Origin: Halorussus marinus
GTDB taxonomy: Archaea; Halobacteriota; Halobacteria; Halobacteriales; Haladaptataceae
DNA length: 64,000 nucleotides
Assembly: GCF_004765795.1 (NCBI RefSeq)
Contig: NZ_SBIV01000002.1
Location: 496,001 to 560,000, forward strand
Direction: 5' to 3'
Part shown: positions 4,720-60,917 of the stretch, one piece after another
How the letters are laid out: every line of letters begins with the position of its first letter
Position numbering within the stretch: the first letter of the stretch is position 1
The notes under the pieces: model-generated
The model's database searches: none
What the model saw: only the letters and a program-made list of their open reading frames with translations
What the model was told of the DNA's origin: nothing
Made by a program: the position numbers and the translations under genes

Positions 4720-4845
4720 TCTACCGCGAGCGAGGGCGAAGCCCGAGCGAGCGGCCCAAGGGCCGACCATCGGGAGGCCCGCAGTGGTTTTGATCGAGCT
4801 TTTGCAAGGGCGGCGCGTTTGTGCGCCGCCCGCAGGAAAAGGTCG
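4720..4845 (-). repeat. Dispersed structured intergenic element, copy A
   Basis: Read on the minus strand this starts one base after the stop codon at 4847. It runs CGACCTTTT, a 9-bp GGGCGGCGC/GCGCCGCCC hairpin (arms 4823-4831 and 4808-4816, six-base loop), then TTGCAAAAGCTCGATCAAAA. A distal box GGGCCGCTCGCTC...CGCTCGCGGT follows (plus-strand 4724-4758). The 60-base core (4786-4845) matches copy C at 54 of 60 positions, and most mismatches are in the hairpin loop. It lies between convergent genes, so one role could be transcription termination. I know no name for this element. Confidence 0.85.
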
Positions 4846-14788: not shown

Positions 14789-15823
14789 ATGGCAGCAGAC
14801 GTAGACCTCGAAGAACTGCCGGGCGTCGGTCCGGCGACCGCAGAAAAGCTCCGAGACGCAGGCTTCGACTCCTACGAGGGCCTCGCGGTAGCCAGTCCCA
14901 GCGAACTCTCCAACACCGCGGACGTTGGCGACTCGACCGCCGCCGACATCGTTCAGGCGGCACGCGAGGCCGCCGACGTCGGCGGGTTCGAGACCGGCGC
15001 GGCCGTGTTAGAGCGCCGCGAGCAGATCGGCAAGCTCAAGTGGAAGATCGATGAGGTCGACGAGCTCCTCGGCGGCGGCGTCGAGACCCAGTCGATCACC
15101 GAGGTGTACGGCGAGTTCGGCGCCGGCAAATCGCAGGTCACCCACCAGCTGGCGGTCAACGTCCAGCTCCCCCGCGAGCACGGCGGACTCGGCGGTAGCG
15201 CCATGTTCATCGACAGCGAGGACACCTTCCGGCCCGAGCGCATCGACGACATGGTCCGGGGGCTCCCCGACGAGGCGCTCCAGGCCGCGATGGACGAGCG
15301 CGAGATCGAGGGCAGTCCCGGCGACGACGAGGCGATGGACGAACTCATCGAGGACTTCCTCGACAAGATCCACGTCGCCAAGGCGTTCAACTCCAACCAC
15401 CAGATGCTGTTGGCCGAGAAAGCCCAAGAGCTCGCGAACGAAACCCAAGACGACGAGTATCCGGTCCGACTGCTCTGTGTCGACTCGCTGACGGCTCACT
15501 TCCGCGCCGAGTACGTCGGCCGGGGCGAACTCGCCGAGCGCCAGCAGAAGCTCAACAAGCACCTCCACGACCTCGACAAGGTCGGCAACCTCCACAACAC
15601 CGCGGTCGTCGTGACCAATCAGGTCGCCTCGAACCCCGACTCGTTCTTCGGCGACCCGACCCAGCCCATCGGAGGCAACATTCTGGGCCACAAGTCGACG
15701 TTCCGGATGTACCTCCGGAAGTCGAAGGGCGACAAGCGCATCGTCCGGCTCGTCGACGCGCCGAACCTCGCCGACGGCGAGGCGGTCATGCGCGTCGAGG
15801 ACGGCGGCCTGAAGCCCGAATAA
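14789..15823 (+). CDS. radA: DNA repair and recombination protein RadA
   Basis: A 344-residue archaeal recombinase (Rad51/RecA family) that forms filaments on single-stranded DNA and drives strand exchange. The N-terminal helix-hairpin-helix domain ([12 protein letters not shown], residues 10-21) is followed by the ATPase core, with Walker A GEFGAGKS at 108-115, the family motif [13 protein letters not shown], Walker [13 protein letters not shown], and the L2-region [14 protein letters not shown] with [14 protein letters not shown]. No intein interrupts it. Its stop is followed within seven bases by structured intergenic element B. Confidence 0.97.
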
Positions 15824-15829
15824 GGACGA

Positions 15830-16066
15830 CGACCTTTTACAGCGGTCGCGCCGAAAGACGCTTCGCGTCTTTCGAGCCTCGGCTCGCTTCGCTCGCCGAG
15901 ACGCTCCGAGCGGCGCTCGCTTGCAAAAGCTCGATCAAAAACACCGGGAGAGCGAAGCTCTCCCGAGCCTGCATTCGCTCCGCTCACGCAGACGCGGCGC
16001 TCCTCCCGCCGTTCGCTTCGGGTCGTCACTTGGTCCGCTCGCTCACTCTGGTCGCTCGCGGTACGA
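15830..16066 (+). repeat. Dispersed structured intergenic element, copy B
   Basis: It starts seven bases after the radA stop with CGACCTTTTAC. It holds a 10-bp stem (15852-15861 with 15865-15874), a 6-bp stem CTCGGC/GCCGAG (15878-15883 with 15895-15900), the signature TTGCAAAAGCTCGATCAAAA (15921-15940), a hairpin GGGAGAGC/GCTCTCCC (15946-15964) and the distal box GGTCCGCTCGCTC...CGCTCGCGGT (16032-16062). Together with the tail to 16162 it fills a gap of over 330 bases between radA and the AI-2E gene. No ORF in it looks real. Compared with copy D, both first stems show a compensatory base change. Confidence 0.85.
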
Positions 16067-26421: not shown

Positions 26422-26621
26422 ACATTGAATGAGGACGGGCGTGGATTTCTGACCGAACGTGATAAGCGTACCGGCCGTGAGCCTCGGGGTGAGACCGCGT
26501 CTCGTCGTCTCCCGATCGTCGGATCGACAGACGATGAGCCCGACGCGGGAGCGCCCGACCCCGCTCCGGGACCGCGAGACCGGCGAGCGAGCCCCGCGCC
26601 CCGAGACAGTTCAGAAAAAGG

Positions 26622-26628
26622 CTTTAAC
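26622..26628 (+). promoter_or_regulatory. TATA box of ffh
   Basis: CTTTAAC preceded by CAGAAAAAGG (purine-rich BRE), centred 31 bases before the ffh ATG. Confidence 0.6.
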
Positions 26629-26655
26629 GCCCGCGCGATCTATCGTTCAACAACG

Positions 26656-28041
26656 ATGGTACTCGACGATTTGGGCACCTCTCTCCGCGACTCTCTCGGC
26701 AAGCTCAGCGGGCAGTCCCGCGTGACCGAGGAGGACGTGGAGGAGATCGTCAAAGAGATTCAGCGGTCGCTCCTGCAGGCCGACGTCGAGGTCGGCCTCG
26801 TGATGGAGCTGTCGGACTCCATCAAGGAGCGCGCGCTGGAGGAAGACGCACCCGGCGGAACGTCGGCCCGCGACCACGTCCTCAGCATCGTCTACGAGGA
26901 GATGGTGGCGCTGGTCGGCGAGAGCATGGAGCTCCCGCTCGAAGAACAGACGATCCTGCTCGCCGGCCTCCAAGGGTCGGGGAAGACCACCACGTCCGCG
27001 AAGATGGCGTGGTGGTTCGCGAAGAAGGGCCTGCGGCCGGCGGTCATCCAGACCGACACCTTCCGGCCCGGCGCCTACGAGCAGGCCGAGGAGATGACCG
27101 CGCGCGCCGAGGTCGACTTCTACGGCGATCCCGACGCCGAGGACCCGGTCGAGATCGCCCGCGAGGGGCTCGAAGCGACCAGCGACGCCGACGTTCACAT
27201 CGTCGACACCGCGGGCCGCCACGCGCTCGAAGACGACCTCATCGACGAGATCGAGCAGATCGAGGGCGTCGTCGAGCCCGACCGGAGTCTGCTGGTGCTC
27301 GACGCCGCCATCGGGCAGGGCGCGAAAGATCAGGCCAGCCAGTTCGAGGAGTCGATCGGGATCGACGGCGTGGTGATCACGAAGCTCGACGGCACCGCGA
27401 AAGGTGGGGGCGCGCTGACCGCGGTCGACGAGACCGGCTCGGCCATCGCGTTCCTCGGGACCGGCGAGGAGGTCCGGGACATAGAGCGATTCGAGCCCTC
27501 GGGGTTCATCTCGCGACTGCTCGGGATGGGCGACCTCAAACAGCTCACCGAGCGCGTCGAGCGCGCGATGGAGGAGACCCAGGAGGAAGACGAAGACTGG
27601 GACCCCGAGGACATGATGAAAGGTGAGTTCACCCTGAAGGACATGCGCCGCCAGATGCAGGCGATGAACAACATGGGGCCCCTCGATCAGGTGATGGACA
27701 TGATCCCCGGGATGGGCGGCGGCCTGATGGACGAACTCCCCGACGACGCGATGGACGTGACCCAAGACCGGATGCGGAGCTTCGAGGTCATCATGGACTC
27801 GATGACCGAAAACGAGCTCGAAAACCCCCGGTCGATCGGCGCGAGTCAGGTCGAGCGCATCGCTCGCGGGAGCGGGAAAGACGAAGAGACGGTCCGTGAG
27901 CTCCTCGAACAGCACAAGATGATGTCCCAGACGCTCAAGCAGTTCCAGGGCATGGGGCAGGGCAACATGGAGCGCATGATGAAAAAGATGCAGGAGGGCG
28001 GCGGCGGTGGCGGCGGCATGGGCGGGATGGGGCCCTTCTAA
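26656..28041 (+). CDS. ffh: Signal recognition particle protein SRP54
   Basis: A 461-residue GTPase that binds signal sequences and SRP RNA. The NG domain has [32 protein letters not shown] and [13 protein letters not shown]. The M domain from residue ~320 has the Met-rich finger loop region ([26 protein letters not shown]) and the RNA-binding [14 protein letters not shown] with RIARGSG. The end is a Gly/Met-rich tail. I chose the ATG giving [10 protein letters not shown] since the longer upstream frame encodes no N-domain sequence. Structured element C begins two bases after its stop. Confidence 0.97.
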
Positions 28042-28042
28042 A

Positions 28043-28205
28043 CGTCCTTTTGCTGCGGGCGGCGCCTGAACGCGCCGCCCTTGCAAACGCTCGATCAAAA
28101 CCACGTCGTCACCCCCTCTCTCGCTTGGAGAGCGCGGAGCGCTCTCCTGCGCTCGGTCGAGGGTTCCTCGGGCCGCTCGCTCCCTTCGGTCGCTCGCGGT
28201 GGGAC
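28043..28205 (+). repeat. Dispersed structured intergenic element, copy C
   Basis: It begins right after the ffh stop: CGTCCTTTTGCTGC, the 9-bp GGGCGGCGC/GCGCCGCCC hairpin (28057-28065 with 28072-28080), then TTGCAAACGCTCGATCAAAACC (28081-28102), a hairpin GGAGAGCGC/GCGCTCTCC (28127-28135 with 28139-28147), and the distal box GGGCCGCTCGCTC...TCGCTCGCGGT (28170-28200). The 60-base core matches copy A at 54 positions. The rest of the gap to 28302 (about 100 bases) holds a CGCCGCCTTTTTG stretch ahead of the MgtE-like gene and nothing else I can name. Confidence 0.85.
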
Positions 28206-33848: not shown

Positions 33849-33968
33849 GGGCACGTAGCTCAGTCCGGATAGAGCGTCGGACTTCTATCCCGGCCGGTGT
33901 CGGCTCGCGACTCGCCGCCGGGTGGGGAAGACATCCGACGGTCGTGGGTTCAAATCCCATCGTGCCCG
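33849..33968 (+). tRNA. tRNA-Arg (anticodon TCT) with a 45-base intron
   Basis: The acceptor arm GGGCACG (33849-33855) pairs with CGTGCCC (33961-33967), discriminator G. The anticodon TCT is at 33884-33886, and the T arm GTGGG TTCAAAT CCCAT is intact. The intron 33888-33932 lies between positions 37 and 38. A perfect bulge-helix-bulge can be drawn: CTTC (33882-33885) pairs with GAAG (33927-33930), three-base bulges flank it, and CCC/GGG pair inside the intron. CCA is not encoded. A TATA-like CCTAAGCTCTTTT lies ~30 bases upstream. It reads AGA codons (and possibly AGG), rare in this GC-rich genome. Confidence 0.95.
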
Positions 33969-34040: not shown

Positions 34041-34116
34041 GATGGGGTTTGAACCCTGCCAGTCGCGCGCAACGAAGTGAGCACGCCTGGCGCTGGTTCA
34101 CAATCCCATCTGCCCG
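34041..34116. repeat. Degenerate inverted and direct copies of the tRNA-Arg 3' end
   Basis: GATGGGGTTTGAACCC (34041-34056) is the reverse complement of the tRNA T-arm region with one mismatch in 16. CTGGTTCACAATCCCATCTGCCCG (34093-34116) repeats the tRNA 3' end in direct orientation with a few changes. Neither can fold as a tRNA. They look like remnants of duplication or integration at the tRNA gene. The stretch 33969-34365 (nearly 400 bases) otherwise holds only the stem-loop above, element D and a Cys/Arg-free GC-rich spacer with no gene. Confidence 0.65.
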
Positions 34117-34117
34117 T

Positions 34118-34295
34118 CGACCTTTTACTGCGGGCGCACCGGAAGACAAACCGCGTCTTCCGAGCCTTGGCTCGCTTCGCTCGCCAAGACGCCCCGAGAG
34201 GCGCGCCCTTGTAAAACGTCGATGAAAAGCCGTCGTCACCCTCTTCGGGGGTTCCTCGGCCTGCTCACTCGCTTCGCTCGTTCGCAGTCGAAAGG
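34118..34295 (+). repeat. Dispersed structured intergenic element, copy D
   Basis: It starts CGACCTTTTACTGCGGGCG right after the tRNA 3'-end remnant. It has stem GGAAGAC/GTCTTCC (34141-34147 with 34155-34161), stem CTTGGC/GCCAAG (34166-34171 with 34183-34188), CGCGCCCTTGTAAAACGTCGATGAAAAG (34202-34229), and a weaker distal box GGCCTGCTCACTC...CGTTCGCAGT (34258-34288). It aligns without gaps to copy B over the two stems, and two base pairs differ in a compensatory way (A-T to G-C, C-G to T-A). It separates the tRNA from the convergent DUF3592 gene. Confidence 0.82.
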
Positions 34296-56723: not shown

Positions 56724-58310
56724 CTACTCCGAGCCGTTGAGTTCGATGTAGCGGGCTTCGATGATGCGACCGTCGGCTTCGAGGACCTCTTTGGCCTCGG
56801 CCGGGACCGGCTCGTCGAGCGTGTACACCGTCAGCGCCTCGCCGCCGTGGGCCTCGCGGGCGTTGAACATGCCCGCGATGTTGACGTCGTGGTCGCCGAG
56901 CACCGTCCCGATGAACCCGATGACGCCCGGCACGTCCTCGTTGCGCGCGACGAGCATGTGGCCGTGGGGGATGGCGTCGACTCGGTAGTCATCGACGCGA
57001 ACGATTCGGGGGTCCTCGTCGGCGAACAGGGTCCCCTCGACGCTGACCGACTCGTCGTCGCCCGCGACTGTCACCCGGACGAGGCTCTGGAAGTCGTCGG
57101 TCTGGCGGGTCTTGGACTCGGTGACCTCGACCCCGCGGTCCTCGGCGATCTGGGGCGCGTTGACCGCGTTGACCTGCCACTCGAGAGGCTGGAACACGCC
57201 CTTCTGGGCGCTCGCGGTCACGAGTTCGACGTCCTCCTCGGCGATGTCGCCCTCGTAGTGGACCTCGATCGACTCGATGCGCTGATCGAGCAGTTGGGTC
57301 GCGATCTTGCCCGCGGTCTCGGCCAGCCCGATGTACGGTTCGACCCGTGGGAACGCGCTCTCGTCGATCGAGGGGGCGTTCAGGGCGTTGACGACCGGCT
57401 GTTCGGCGAAGGCGGCGACGACCTGATCGGCGGTGCTGGTCGCGACGTTCTCCTGGGCGGCTTCGGTGCTCGCGCCGAGGTGGGGCGTGACGACCACGTC
57501 CTCGACGTCGAGCAGGGGGTTGTCGGGCGAGACGGGCTCGTCGGCGAACACGTCGACCGCCGCGCCGGCCAACACGCCGTCGTCGACGGCCGCCGCGAGC
57601 GCGTCCTCGTCGACGACGCCGCCGCGGGCGCAGTTGACGAGGTAGCCCCCCTCCATCTGGGCGAGCTCCGCGTCGGAGATGAGGCCCTCGGTCTCGGGGG
57701 TGAGCGGAGTGTGGACCGTCAGGAAGTCCGCGCGGTCGAGACAGTCGTCGAGGTCGACCAGTTCGGCGCCCAACTGGGCGGCGCGGTTCTCGCTGATGTA
57801 GGGATCGTAGGCGACCAGCTCCATCCCGAGCGAGTCGAGCTTCTTCGCGACCTCCTGACCGACCCGACCCAGCCCGACCACGCCAAGCGTCTTGGCGTTG
57901 ACCTCGGTGCCCAGATAGTCGCCTTTCGCCCACTCGCCGTCCTTCAGGCGGGCGTGGGCCTGCGGGATCGACCGCGCCGAGGCGAACGCCATCGCGACGG
58001 TGTGTTCGGCCGCCGCCCGGACGTTGCCCTCGGGGGCGTTGGCGACGATGACGCCGTGATCGGTCGCGGCGTCGATGTCGATGTTGTCGACGCCGATGCC
58101 GGCCCGCCCGACGATCACGAGCTCCGGGGCGGCCTCGAACACTTCCTCGGTGACCTCGGTGCCCGACCGGACGATCAGCCCGTTCGCGTCCGAGACCGCC
58201 GAGAGGAGGGCGTCGCCCTCCACGTCGTAGGCCGTTTCGACGTCGTGGCCCGCCTCTCTGAGGCGGTCTAACCCTGCGTCCGCGATGGGGTCCGTGACGA
58301 GGACTTGCAT
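56724..58310 (-). CDS. serA: D-3-phosphoglycerate dehydrogenase
   Basis: A 528-residue enzyme for the first step of serine synthesis. It has VLVTDPIADAGLDRLREAG, GRAGIGVDNIDIDAATDHG, the NAD loop GVVGLGRVGQEVAKKL, NCARGGVVDEDALAAA, and the catalytic His in VVVTPHLGASTEAAQ. The ASB domain (about 310-440) and a C-terminal ACT domain (IPHGHMLVARNEDVPGVIGFIGT) follow, allowing serine feedback. Length is that of the long type I form. It is divergent from the first Pit permease gene. Confidence 0.95.
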   Translation of the reverse strand: MQVLVTDPIADAGLDRLREAGHDVETAYDVEGDALLSAVSDANGLIVRSGTEVTEEVFEAAPELVIVGRAGIGVDNIDIDAATDHGVIVANAPEGNVRAAAEHTVAMAFASARSIPQAHARLKDGEWAKGDYLGTEVNAKTLGVVGLGRVGQEVAKKLDSLGMELVAYDPYISENRAAQLGAELVDLDDCLDRADFLTVHTPLTPETEGLISDAELAQMEGGYLVNCARGGVVDEDALAAAVDDGVLAGAAVDVFADEPVSPDNPLLDVEDVVVTPHLGASTEAAQENVATSTADQVVAAFAEQPVVNALNAPSIDESAFPRVEPYIGLAETAGKIATQLLDQRIESIEVHYEGDIAEEDVELVTASAQKGVFQPLEWQVNAVNAPQIAEDRGVEVTESKTRQTDDFQSLVRVTVAGDDESVSVEGTLFADEDPRIVRVDDYRVDAIPHGHMLVARNEDVPGVIGFIGTVLGDHDVNIAGMFNAREAHGGEALTVYTLDEPVPAEAKEVLEADGRIIEARYIELNGSE

Positions 58311-58443
58311 GCGTATTGGAACTGGTGCCGGCGGGATAACCCTTTCTTCCGCTGTACCATTTGCCGACCCGCGTCCGGACGGCCCCGACGTCGTCGGCGG
58401 CCACGTCGAAGATTTAAGCGATACTCGCTCGAATCACCGACGC

Positions 58444-59583
58444 ATGCTGCTGTTACTCGTTGGTCTCGGCGTCGCCGCCTTCGTCGGCTTCAACGTCGGC
58501 GGGTCGAACACGGGCGTCGCGTTCGGTCCGGCGGTCGGGAGCGACGCGGTCTCGAAGTCCGGGGCGGCCGGACTGATGAGCGTCTGCTTCCTGCTTGGCG
58601 GCTGGACGCTCGGTCGCCGCGTGGTCGACACCCTCGGGCGGGGACTGGTCGCCGACGATCCGTTCACGATGCGGGTGAGCATCGCGGTCTTGCTGTTCAT
58701 CGGGCTCGCGCTGTTCGCCGGCAACGTCTTCGGGGTTCCGGCCTCGACGTCGATGACCGCCGTCGGCGCCATCGTCGGCCTCGGGCTGGCGATCGGCCGG
58801 CTGAAGGTCGACGCCGTGATCGAGATCGTCGGGTGGTGGCTGGTCGCGCCGATCGTCGGCTTCTGGGCGAGCGCGGTCGTCGGCCGCTACTGGTACGACG
58901 ACCTCGCCGCGCGGATCGCGGTCGACCGGACCGACGGGCCGCTGGTGGCTCTCGATCGGTCGGGGGCGATCCCCCGCCCGGCGCTCGGCCCGAACACGAC
59001 CCGCCGGGAGTTCGCTGGAACCGCCGTGGTCGTCGTGATCGGCTGTTACATGGCGTTCTCGGCGGGCGCGTCCAACGTCGCCAACGCCGTCGCGCCCCTC
59101 GTCGGAAGCGGCGCGATCACGATGACCCAAGGCGTCCTGCTGGCGGCGGGCGCGACCGGCGTGGGGGCGTTCACTATCGCGCGTCGCACCCTCGACACCG
59201 TCGGCAACGACCTCACCGACCTCCCGCTGGTCGCGGCGGTCGTGGTCGCGGTCGTGAGCTCCTCGATCGTGACGGCGCTGTCGGCGCTCAGCGTCCCCGC
59301 GAGCTTCGTCGTGATCGCCACGATGAGCGTCGTGGGGCTCGGATGGGGCCGAGCGACCGTCGCCGAGGCGGTCCCCGACGAGCCGAGCGTGCCCACCGCC
59401 GGGGTCGGCCCCGCTAGCGGGACCACCGAACCGTCCGACGTCGTCGAGGACGGGGGCGCGCCGTCGCCCGCCGAGCTCTATCAGCCCGCGACGACCGCCC
59501 GGGTGATCGCACTCCAGAACCTCGTGCCGGCGGTGGCGACCGTCGTCGCGTACCTCGTGTTCCGGTACGTTCCGATCTGGTGA
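58444..59583 (+). CDS. Pit-family inorganic phosphate permease, copy 1
   Basis: A 379-residue low-affinity phosphate transporter of the PiT family. About ten helices are predicted. The duplicated signature occurs as GFNVGGSNTGVAFGPAVGS near the start and FSAGASNVANAVAPLVGSG near residue 205. A short cytoplasmic linker (about 310-345) precedes the last helix. The ATG at 58444 follows GATTTAAGCG ~30 bases upstream. A second permease follows 84 bases downstream, and the two share long identical DNA stretches, including 77 bases at 59029-59105. Confidence 0.92.
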   Translation: MLLLLVGLGVAAFVGFNVGGSNTGVAFGPAVGSDAVSKSGAAGLMSVCFLLGGWTLGRRVVDTLGRGLVADDPFTMRVSIAVLLFIGLALFAGNVFGVPASTSMTAVGAIVGLGLAIGRLKVDAVIEIVGWWLVAPIVGFWASAVVGRYWYDDLAARIAVDRTDGPLVALDRSGAIPRPALGPNTTRREFAGTAVVVVIGCYMAFSAGASNVANAVAPLVGSGAITMTQGVLLAAGATGVGAFTIARRTLDTVGNDLTDLPLVAAVVVAVVSSSIVTALSALSVPASFVVIATMSVVGLGWGRATVAEAVPDEPSVPTAGVGPASGTTEPSDVVEDGGAPSPAELYQPATTARVIALQNLVPAVATVVAYLVFRYVPIW

Positions 59584-59667
59584 GCCGCGTCGGCGCGAAA
59601 TGGCGGGCCGGCCACATCGATTTCGGGAACCGACACGCCTTAATCACTCTCCGAGTTTCGTGTACCC

Positions 59668-60867
59668 ATGGTGAGCCTGCTGTTAGTCGTCGGCGTTGCG
59701 GTCGCGGTGTTCGTCGGATTCAACATCGGCGGATCCTCGACGGGCGTCGCGTTCGGTCCCGCGGTCGGCAGCGACGTGCTCTCGAAGCTCGGGGCGGCCG
59801 GGCTGATGGCGGGGTTCGCGCTGCTGGGCGGCTGGACGGTCGGTCGGAACGTCATCGCGACGATGGGCGGACAGATCGTGCCCGCGGAGCTTTTCACGCT
59901 CGGCGCGAGCGTCGGCGTCCTCTTTTTCGTCGGCCTCGCGCTCCTCGTCTCGAACCTCTTCGGGGTGCCCGCCTCCACGTCGATGACCGCCGTCGGCGCC
60001 ATCGCCGGCCTCGGGGTCGCCGCGGGCAACATCGACTGGAGCGTGATGGGCCGCATCGTCTCGTGGTGGCTGGTCGCGCCCATCCTCGCGTTCTGGGTGT
60101 GTGCGGTCGTCGGCCGATACGTCTACCCCTACCTCGACGTCTGGTTCCGGATCGACCAGACCGAGGGGCCGCTGATCGAGTACCGCCGGGTCGGCTCGAT
60201 CCCCTACCCGGTCGCGGGCGCCGACACCAATCGGCGCGAACTCGTGAGCAGCGTCCTCGTCGTCGTGATCGGCTGTTACATGGCGTTCTCGGCGGGCGCG
60301 TCCAACGTCGCCAACGCCGTCGCGCCCCTCGTCGGGAGCGGAGCGCTCGCCACCGATCAGGGCATCCTGCTCGCCGGGGGAGCCATCGCGCTCGGCGCCT
60401 TCACGATCGCGCGTCGCACCCTCGACACCGTCGGCAACGGCCTCACCGACCTCCCGCTGTTGGCGGCGCTCATCGTCGAGGTGGTGTCGGCGTCGCTCAT
60501 CACCTTCCTGTCGTACCTCGGCATCCCGGCGAGTCTCGCGGTGAGCGCCACGATGTGCATCATCGGGCTCGGGTGGGGCCGGGCGACCCGGACGGTCCGG
60601 CTCTCGGACGCGGCGGCGTCGGCGGTCAGCGGCGACGCCCGCGACCCGTCGGGCGGCGAGGAGTCGGCGATGTCGGTCAACGCGCTCGCGGCCGACCCCG
60701 AAGACGAGGTCAAGAAGATCGGCGAGGAAGAGCCCGCCGACCTGCAGGCGAGCGACCTGTTCGACCCGGAAGCGACCGGCCGCGTCGTGATGCTCTGGAT
60801 TCTGACGCCGTCGATCTCGGCGGTCGCGTCGTTCCTGCTTTTCCGGTTCGTCCCGATTTACGGGTAG
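59668..60867 (+). CDS. Pit-family inorganic phosphate permease, copy 2
   Basis: A 399-residue paralog of the upstream permease with the same signatures, GFNIGGSSTGVAFGPAVGS and FSAGASNVANAVAPLVGSG, and about ten helices. The cytoplasmic linker before the last helix is longer and acidic (residues ~310-375). The promoter candidate CGCCTTAATC lies ~30 bases before the ATG, so it may be expressed separately from copy 1. The 77-base block identical to copy 1 is at 60259-60335. Differences in the linkers suggest distinct regulation. Confidence 0.92.
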   Translation: MVSLLLVVGVAVAVFVGFNIGGSSTGVAFGPAVGSDVLSKLGAAGLMAGFALLGGWTVGRNVIATMGGQIVPAELFTLGASVGVLFFVGLALLVSNLFGVPASTSMTAVGAIAGLGVAAGNIDWSVMGRIVSWWLVAPILAFWVCAVVGRYVYPYLDVWFRIDQTEGPLIEYRRVGSIPYPVAGADTNRRELVSSVLVVVIGCYMAFSAGASNVANAVAPLVGSGALATDQGILLAGGAIALGAFTIARRTLDTVGNGLTDLPLLAALIVEVVSASLITFLSYLGIPASLAVSATMCIIGLGWGRATRTVRLSDAAASAVSGDARDPSGGEESAMSVNALAADPEDEVKKIGEEEPADLQASDLFDPEATGRVVMLWILTPSISAVASFLLFRFVPIYG

Positions 60868-60917
60868 CTCGGCGGAAACAATAACTACTAACCATCTGCC
60901 GGTCGAAACTCAGGGTG

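Follow-up and report, generated by a model that had tools for sequence, protein, structure and literature searches.

MITEs end in inverted repeats that are related to a parent transposon. Rickettsia palindromic elements (RPEs) are palindromic repeats found in frame within unrelated protein genes, where they encode a conserved peptide, and no cognate transposase has been named for them (PMC10969869, PMC3733652). The CGTC- and GTAG-tagged REPs are short dispersed palindromes, often located just after stop codons and sometimes intragenic; the CGTC type has no dedicated transposase, and the text of the paper on CGTC and GTAG REPs makes no mention of haloarchaea (PMC3733652). The PATEs of Haloquadratum walsbyi have ends in common with those of IS605-type transposons (PMC3119063). 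Within open-licence papers, we found no earlier report of in-frame palindromes in archaea and no haloarchaeal precedent.

We analyzed a window of 64,000 nucleotides from Halorussus marinus (contig NZ_SBIV01000002.1, positions 496,001 to 560,000), in which a first-pass annotation had aligned segment B (15851-15900) to segment D (34139-34188) without gaps and had reported a compensatory base change in each of two stems. The alignment is correct in all of its coordinates and bases. The segments differ at 8 of 50 positions (15854, 15860-15863, 15872, 15880, and 15898). From B to D, the stem 1 pair 15854/15872 changes from A-T to G-C and the stem 2 pair 15880/15898 from C-G to T-A, as annotated; the four remaining differences all fall in the loop of stem 1, which had been described as not conserved and is indeed variable. 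A simple count puts the probability that four random changes outside the loop make exactly two pairs at ∼6e-4, or at ∼7e-5 if both new pairs are also required to be complementary. Folded as single-stranded DNA, B and D each gave the two annotated hairpins. An alternative hairpin spanning the spacer, CGAGCC/GGCTCG, was judged by eye and dropped because it leaves the G15898A change without explanation.

The similarity between B and D extends past the annotated segment to 114 nt at 82%, comprising a host hairpin and a unit nested within it. The host hairpin is long and imperfect, with the form CGACCTTTTGCtgcGGGCGGCGC...GCGCCGCCCttGCAAAAGcTCGATCAAAAAC; 18 of its short copies served to build a covariance model, R1. 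The unit, of ∼48-53 bases, consists of two hairpins in series with the layout CRCC-stem1-GAGCC-N5-TCGCTTCGCTC-N5'-GAC, where CRCC, GAGCC, TCGCTTCGCTC, and GAC are fixed and the arms are variable. The window holds four R1 host hairpins, at 4785, 15830, 28043, and 34118. The features of the window are as follows.

4785 to 4845, minus strand: host hairpin without the unit, probably copy A of the first-pass annotation; adjoins a stop codon; R1 score, 86 bits.
14789 to 15823, plus strand: open reading frame, putative radA, with the stop codon TAA at 15821-15823, followed by the B element.
15830 to 15943, plus strand: B host hairpin, after radA; R1 score, 52.7 bits; apical loop split by the unit.
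15849 to 15902, plus strand: B unit, with CGCC, stem 1 at 15853-15873, and GAGCC at 15874-15878, from sequence and fold.
15879 to 15883 and 15895 to 15899, plus strand: arms of stem 2 of the B unit, enclosing TCGCTTCGCTC and followed by GAC.
15942 to 15993, plus strand: second unit, directly 3' of the B host hairpin, identified by the fixed-base pattern, with CACC, stem 1 at 15946-15964, GAGCC, arms TGCAT/ACGCA, and GAC.
28043 to 28103, plus strand: host hairpin without the unit, probably copy C of the first-pass annotation; adjoins the stop codon of the open reading frame 26425-28041; R1 score, 83.7 bits.
33849 to 33968: tRNA gene with a long intron, upstream of D; found by Rfam and missed by ARAGORN (bacterial code).
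34118 to 34231, plus strand: D host hairpin, downstream of the tRNA gene; R1 score, 53.5 bits.
34137 to 34190, plus strand: D unit, with CACC, stem 1 at 34141-34161, GAGCC, arms TTGGC/GCCAA, and GAC, from sequence and fold.

In both B and D, the apical loop of the host hairpin holds a unit of ∼53 nt that contains the annotated segment. The core of the unit-free host hairpins at that point is GCGCC-CCGAG, and comparison of the cores with and without the unit suggests that the unit was inserted into the host hairpin. The B host hairpin has arms, CGACCTTTTAC and GCAAAAGCTCG, that resemble terminal inverted repeats. A search of the window with Rfam returned only a tRNA and no curated structured-RNA family for the unit. 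By eye, the stretch 34085-34112, ∼120 nt downstream of the tRNA gene, resembles a tRNA 3' end (GGTTCACAATCCCATCTGCC) and is possibly the remnant of an integration event. Elsewhere in the window, at 58285-60884, two adjoining long open reading frames with 72 to 76% DNA identity over two 300-nt stretches form a tandem duplication.

Searching the H. marinus genome with R1 gave 53 matches at an E value of ≤0.01, some of which are one palindrome read on both strands; each of the 17 other Halorussus genomes gave matches too, as did the family and several further families of the order. Among 48 copies in the H. marinus genome, 35 are downstream of a gene on the same strand, and 30 are ≤8 nt from its stop codon. 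This placement is what would be expected if the B/D structure were a functional 3'-end RNA element of the upstream gene, acting as a terminator or mRNA stabilizer, with folding selected as RNA. In Haloferax, a hairpin and T stretches are capable of terminating transcription (PMC7237163), and R1-like hairpins are found just after radA in several other genera (L066, L093, L095, L098, L100, and L127), so that the end of this gene looks as if it had been repeatedly occupied by them. The name radA is a probable one, drawn from conserved sequence with radA-type relatives across haloarchaea; the closest named radA loci, all from Halorussus, are 94 to 97% identical, and in six other Halorussus the element is absent from the 3' side of radA. 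That absence counts against an RNA element of the gene end, as does the fact that most host hairpin copies lack the unit, which itself also occurs within genes, on the opposite strand. A 3'-end function fits the host hairpin better than the unit, and we regard it as an unlikely explanation of the B/D structure.

The Halorussus genomes were searched with the pattern CGAGCC-N5-TCGCTTCGCTC-N5-GACG, with two mismatches allowed. The search gave 482 unit copies, in 18 of 18 genomes, versus 2 for the reversed pattern. Across the order, 140 of 196 genomes yielded copies, representing 47 of 66 genera, again with a reversed control near zero; Halorussus and a few other genera are enriched. A plasmid collection yielded two weak haloarchaeal matches. 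In the H. marinus genome (3.76 Mb), for which the statistics are based on individually retrieved loci, every unit copy seen is noncoding. The unit is often bordered by CCACC and TCGCGCG, as in many noncoding copies (e.g., L266, L267, and L291), which suggests a third dispersed repeat in which it is likewise nested.

Of 155 unit copies, 24 are intragenic by a simple gene finder based on codon usage. This figure is a lower bound from a nonrandom sample, because the gene finder is rough and probably overlooked coding copies (e.g., L144). All 24 are antisense to the gene in which they lie and share one frame, which encodes about GVSASEASGGSSDESDG, a short, acidic, serine-rich peptide. When the consensus unit is translated in six frames, only the frame used and one other have four acidic and zero basic residues. 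Each of the 23 coding copies whose stem 1 is clear has a stem 1 length of 1 mod 3, versus 46 of 109 noncoding copies; such a difference would be expected if inserts survive only at a length of 3n. By Pfam, the carriers include HMG-CoA reductase, adenylosuccinate synthetase, ATP-dependent DNA ligase, tryptophan synthase alpha, and an AMP-binding enzyme. One gene (L165, 197-2041) contains the palindrome-encoded peptide twice, as DVSASEASGGSSDESDGG and as EVSASEASGGPSGERSGSDGG.

Orthologs, compared mostly between species, provided empty sites. HMG-CoA reductase has an insert of exactly 48 nt in 1 of 16 genomes (G004) and none in the other 15 orthologs. A quinone reductase gene is 1017 nt long in one genome (G013) and 969 nt in most orthologs, an exact 48-nt difference, and among 15 aligned acyl-CoA ligases, the insert is present in one (G008) and absent from the other 14. 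A MetX-like protein has an intact unit in one species (L367) and relic-like inserts in two others (L368 and L369); these occupy the same position as the intact unit and roughly keep the peptide length, and their palindrome is degraded. Palindromes of the GCTTCGC type are abundant in haloarchaeal intergenic DNA, so that B and D could in principle be a chance likeness between GC-rich palindromes. Shuffling of the window gave zero chance matches, however, and, with the near-absence of reversed-pattern matches and the exact empty sites, this makes a chance origin scarcely credible.

For the analysis of covariation, unit copies were picked by their fixed bases only, with the arms left unspecified, and pairing was therefore tested without search bias. 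In the 150 copies listed, 94% of stem 2 cells are paired, compared with 51% for shuffled arms, and 38 of the 62 distinct stem 2 arm pairs are fully paired. The 155 copies taken as loci are likewise 94% paired in both stems (stem 1 from 139 copies), with 68 distinct arm pairs in stem 2, of which 42 are fully paired. Counting distinct arms, 90% of stem 2 is paired versus 52% after shuffling, and 87% of stem 1 versus 61%, although arm shuffling retains the kinship among copies, and thus the pairing percentages are not formal probabilities. Stem 1 was counted from anchors because MAFFT misaligned it in copies with a long loop. A preliminary pair count that used a pairing filter was set aside as biased and was repeated without the filter. 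Single-rung differences between distinct arm pairs were two-sided in 75 cases versus 29 one-sided for stem 2, and in 63 versus 33 for stem 1; rather than breaking pairing as often as they keep it, stem changes are more commonly paired.

The first-pass annotation had concluded that the folded form is selected, and not only the sequence. The strong covariation in both stems, across ∼150 copies whose arms played no part in their selection, bears out that folding is maintained beyond the sequence. It does not establish selection on a structured RNA as the cause, because the copies are dispersed paralogs, not orthologs, in both coding and noncoding DNA, and because palindrome correction by template switching yields paired changes without selection. 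Such correction is a recognized mutational process. The paired changes may be purely mutational, with quasi-palindrome correction (by template switching or arm conversion) copying a change from one arm to the other in the absence of structural selection; we consider this a serious alternative, with somewhat less than an even chance of being right. It would account equally well for paired changes in coding and noncoding copies, and the MetX-like site, with one intact and two relic-like units, looks as if old copies decay. On its own, however, correction leaves unexplained the dispersal of the unit and its fixed GAGCC, TCGCTTCGCTC, and GAC, and about one-third of single-rung differences are one-sided, so correction is incomplete. 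Palindrome correction and a role of the hairpins in spread may both be at work.

The unit is dispersed among genomes, present or absent at given sites between species, conserved in its pairing, and in frame where it is coding. We conclude that the B/D segment is probably one copy of a small, non-autonomous palindromic repeat dispersing among haloarchaeal genomes, whose spread may depend on folding. In 132 aligned junctions, the edges of the unit show palindromes near the termini and no terminal inverted repeats. A search for a target duplication turned up only a short, partial direct repeat of CRCC, in which R matches between the two sides for 51 of 63 copies versus 37.6 expected; as the junction repeats are partial, target duplication is not established. 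A Y1 transposase (PF01797) gave no match in the H. marinus genome, nor in five copy-rich genomes. Such transposases are present in 10 of 18 Halorussus genomes, and among these genomes, the presence of Y1 shows no association with unit copy number.

These data bear on the proposal that the unit is a minimal PATE or IS200/IS605 derivative, moved as single-stranded DNA by a present or former Y1 transposase. Two near-terminal palindromes without terminal inverted repeats, a short conserved left flank (CRCC), and a right end (GAC) would suit such an element, and the PATEs of Haloquadratum have a similar layout (PMC3119063). Y1 transposases are available in more than half of the Halorussus genomes, but their presence does not follow copy number, and CRCC on both sides would not be expected of movement without target duplication. 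We view this origin as rather doubtful.

For the dispersing, fold-dependent repeat that we favor, spread would need a folded single-stranded or cruciform form, and the mobilizing activity would therefore read the hairpins rather than the arm sequence. Paired changes would survive because a copy that does not fold would not spread. In coding DNA, purifying selection would keep only inserts of length 3n, and the retained frame would give an acidic, serine-rich peptide of a kind tolerated in a halophile protein. A more speculative and, in our judgment, improbable extension is that an order-wide haloarchaeal family of protein-coding palindromes might keep supplying essential enzymes with acidic surface loops, doubly constrained in that the DNA folds and one frame suits a salt-adapted proteome; the enzymes named for this reading are HMG-CoA reductase, adenylosuccinate synthetase, DNA ligase, and those of tryptophan synthesis. 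In-frame intragenic palindromes are already known from Rickettsia and some bacterial REP families. An archaeal counterpart, with housekeeping enzymes that show clean empty sites, would mean that small palindromes reshape proteins in a further domain of life and would offer some acidic insertions in halophile proteins an origin at the DNA level. With so many covarying copies, the family is also well suited to distinguishing selection on folded DNA from palindrome correction.

The unit resembles MITEs in being small, non-autonomous, and dispersed, and seems to differ from them in that no terminal inverted repeat was seen in it, although the host hairpin has arms of that kind. Like PATEs, it is haloarchaeal, is too short for a transposase gene, and has near-terminal palindromes and no terminal inverted repeats; in-frame insertion into genes is a feature of the unit and is not among the PATE traits considered here (PMC3119063). 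Its gene-sense strand begins near GGCGTC, a partial likeness to CGTC REPs, which have a single stem of 8 to 9 bp and a loop of 4 to 5 nt, whereas the unit has two serial stems and an 11-nt loop in stem 2. REP/RAYT systems have a dedicated Y1 (RAYT) transposase, unlike the H. marinus genome and the five copy-rich genomes. By analogy, the unit appears to behave like RPEs and REPs. The comparison with RPEs is one of analogy and not of sequence: RPEs are reported to be ∼150 bp long, whereas the unit is haloarchaeal, ∼48-53 bp, and GC-rich, with an acidic, serine-rich peptide. What the two share is a palindrome in frame within otherwise intact protein genes, seen here in 24 coding copies and at exact empty sites.
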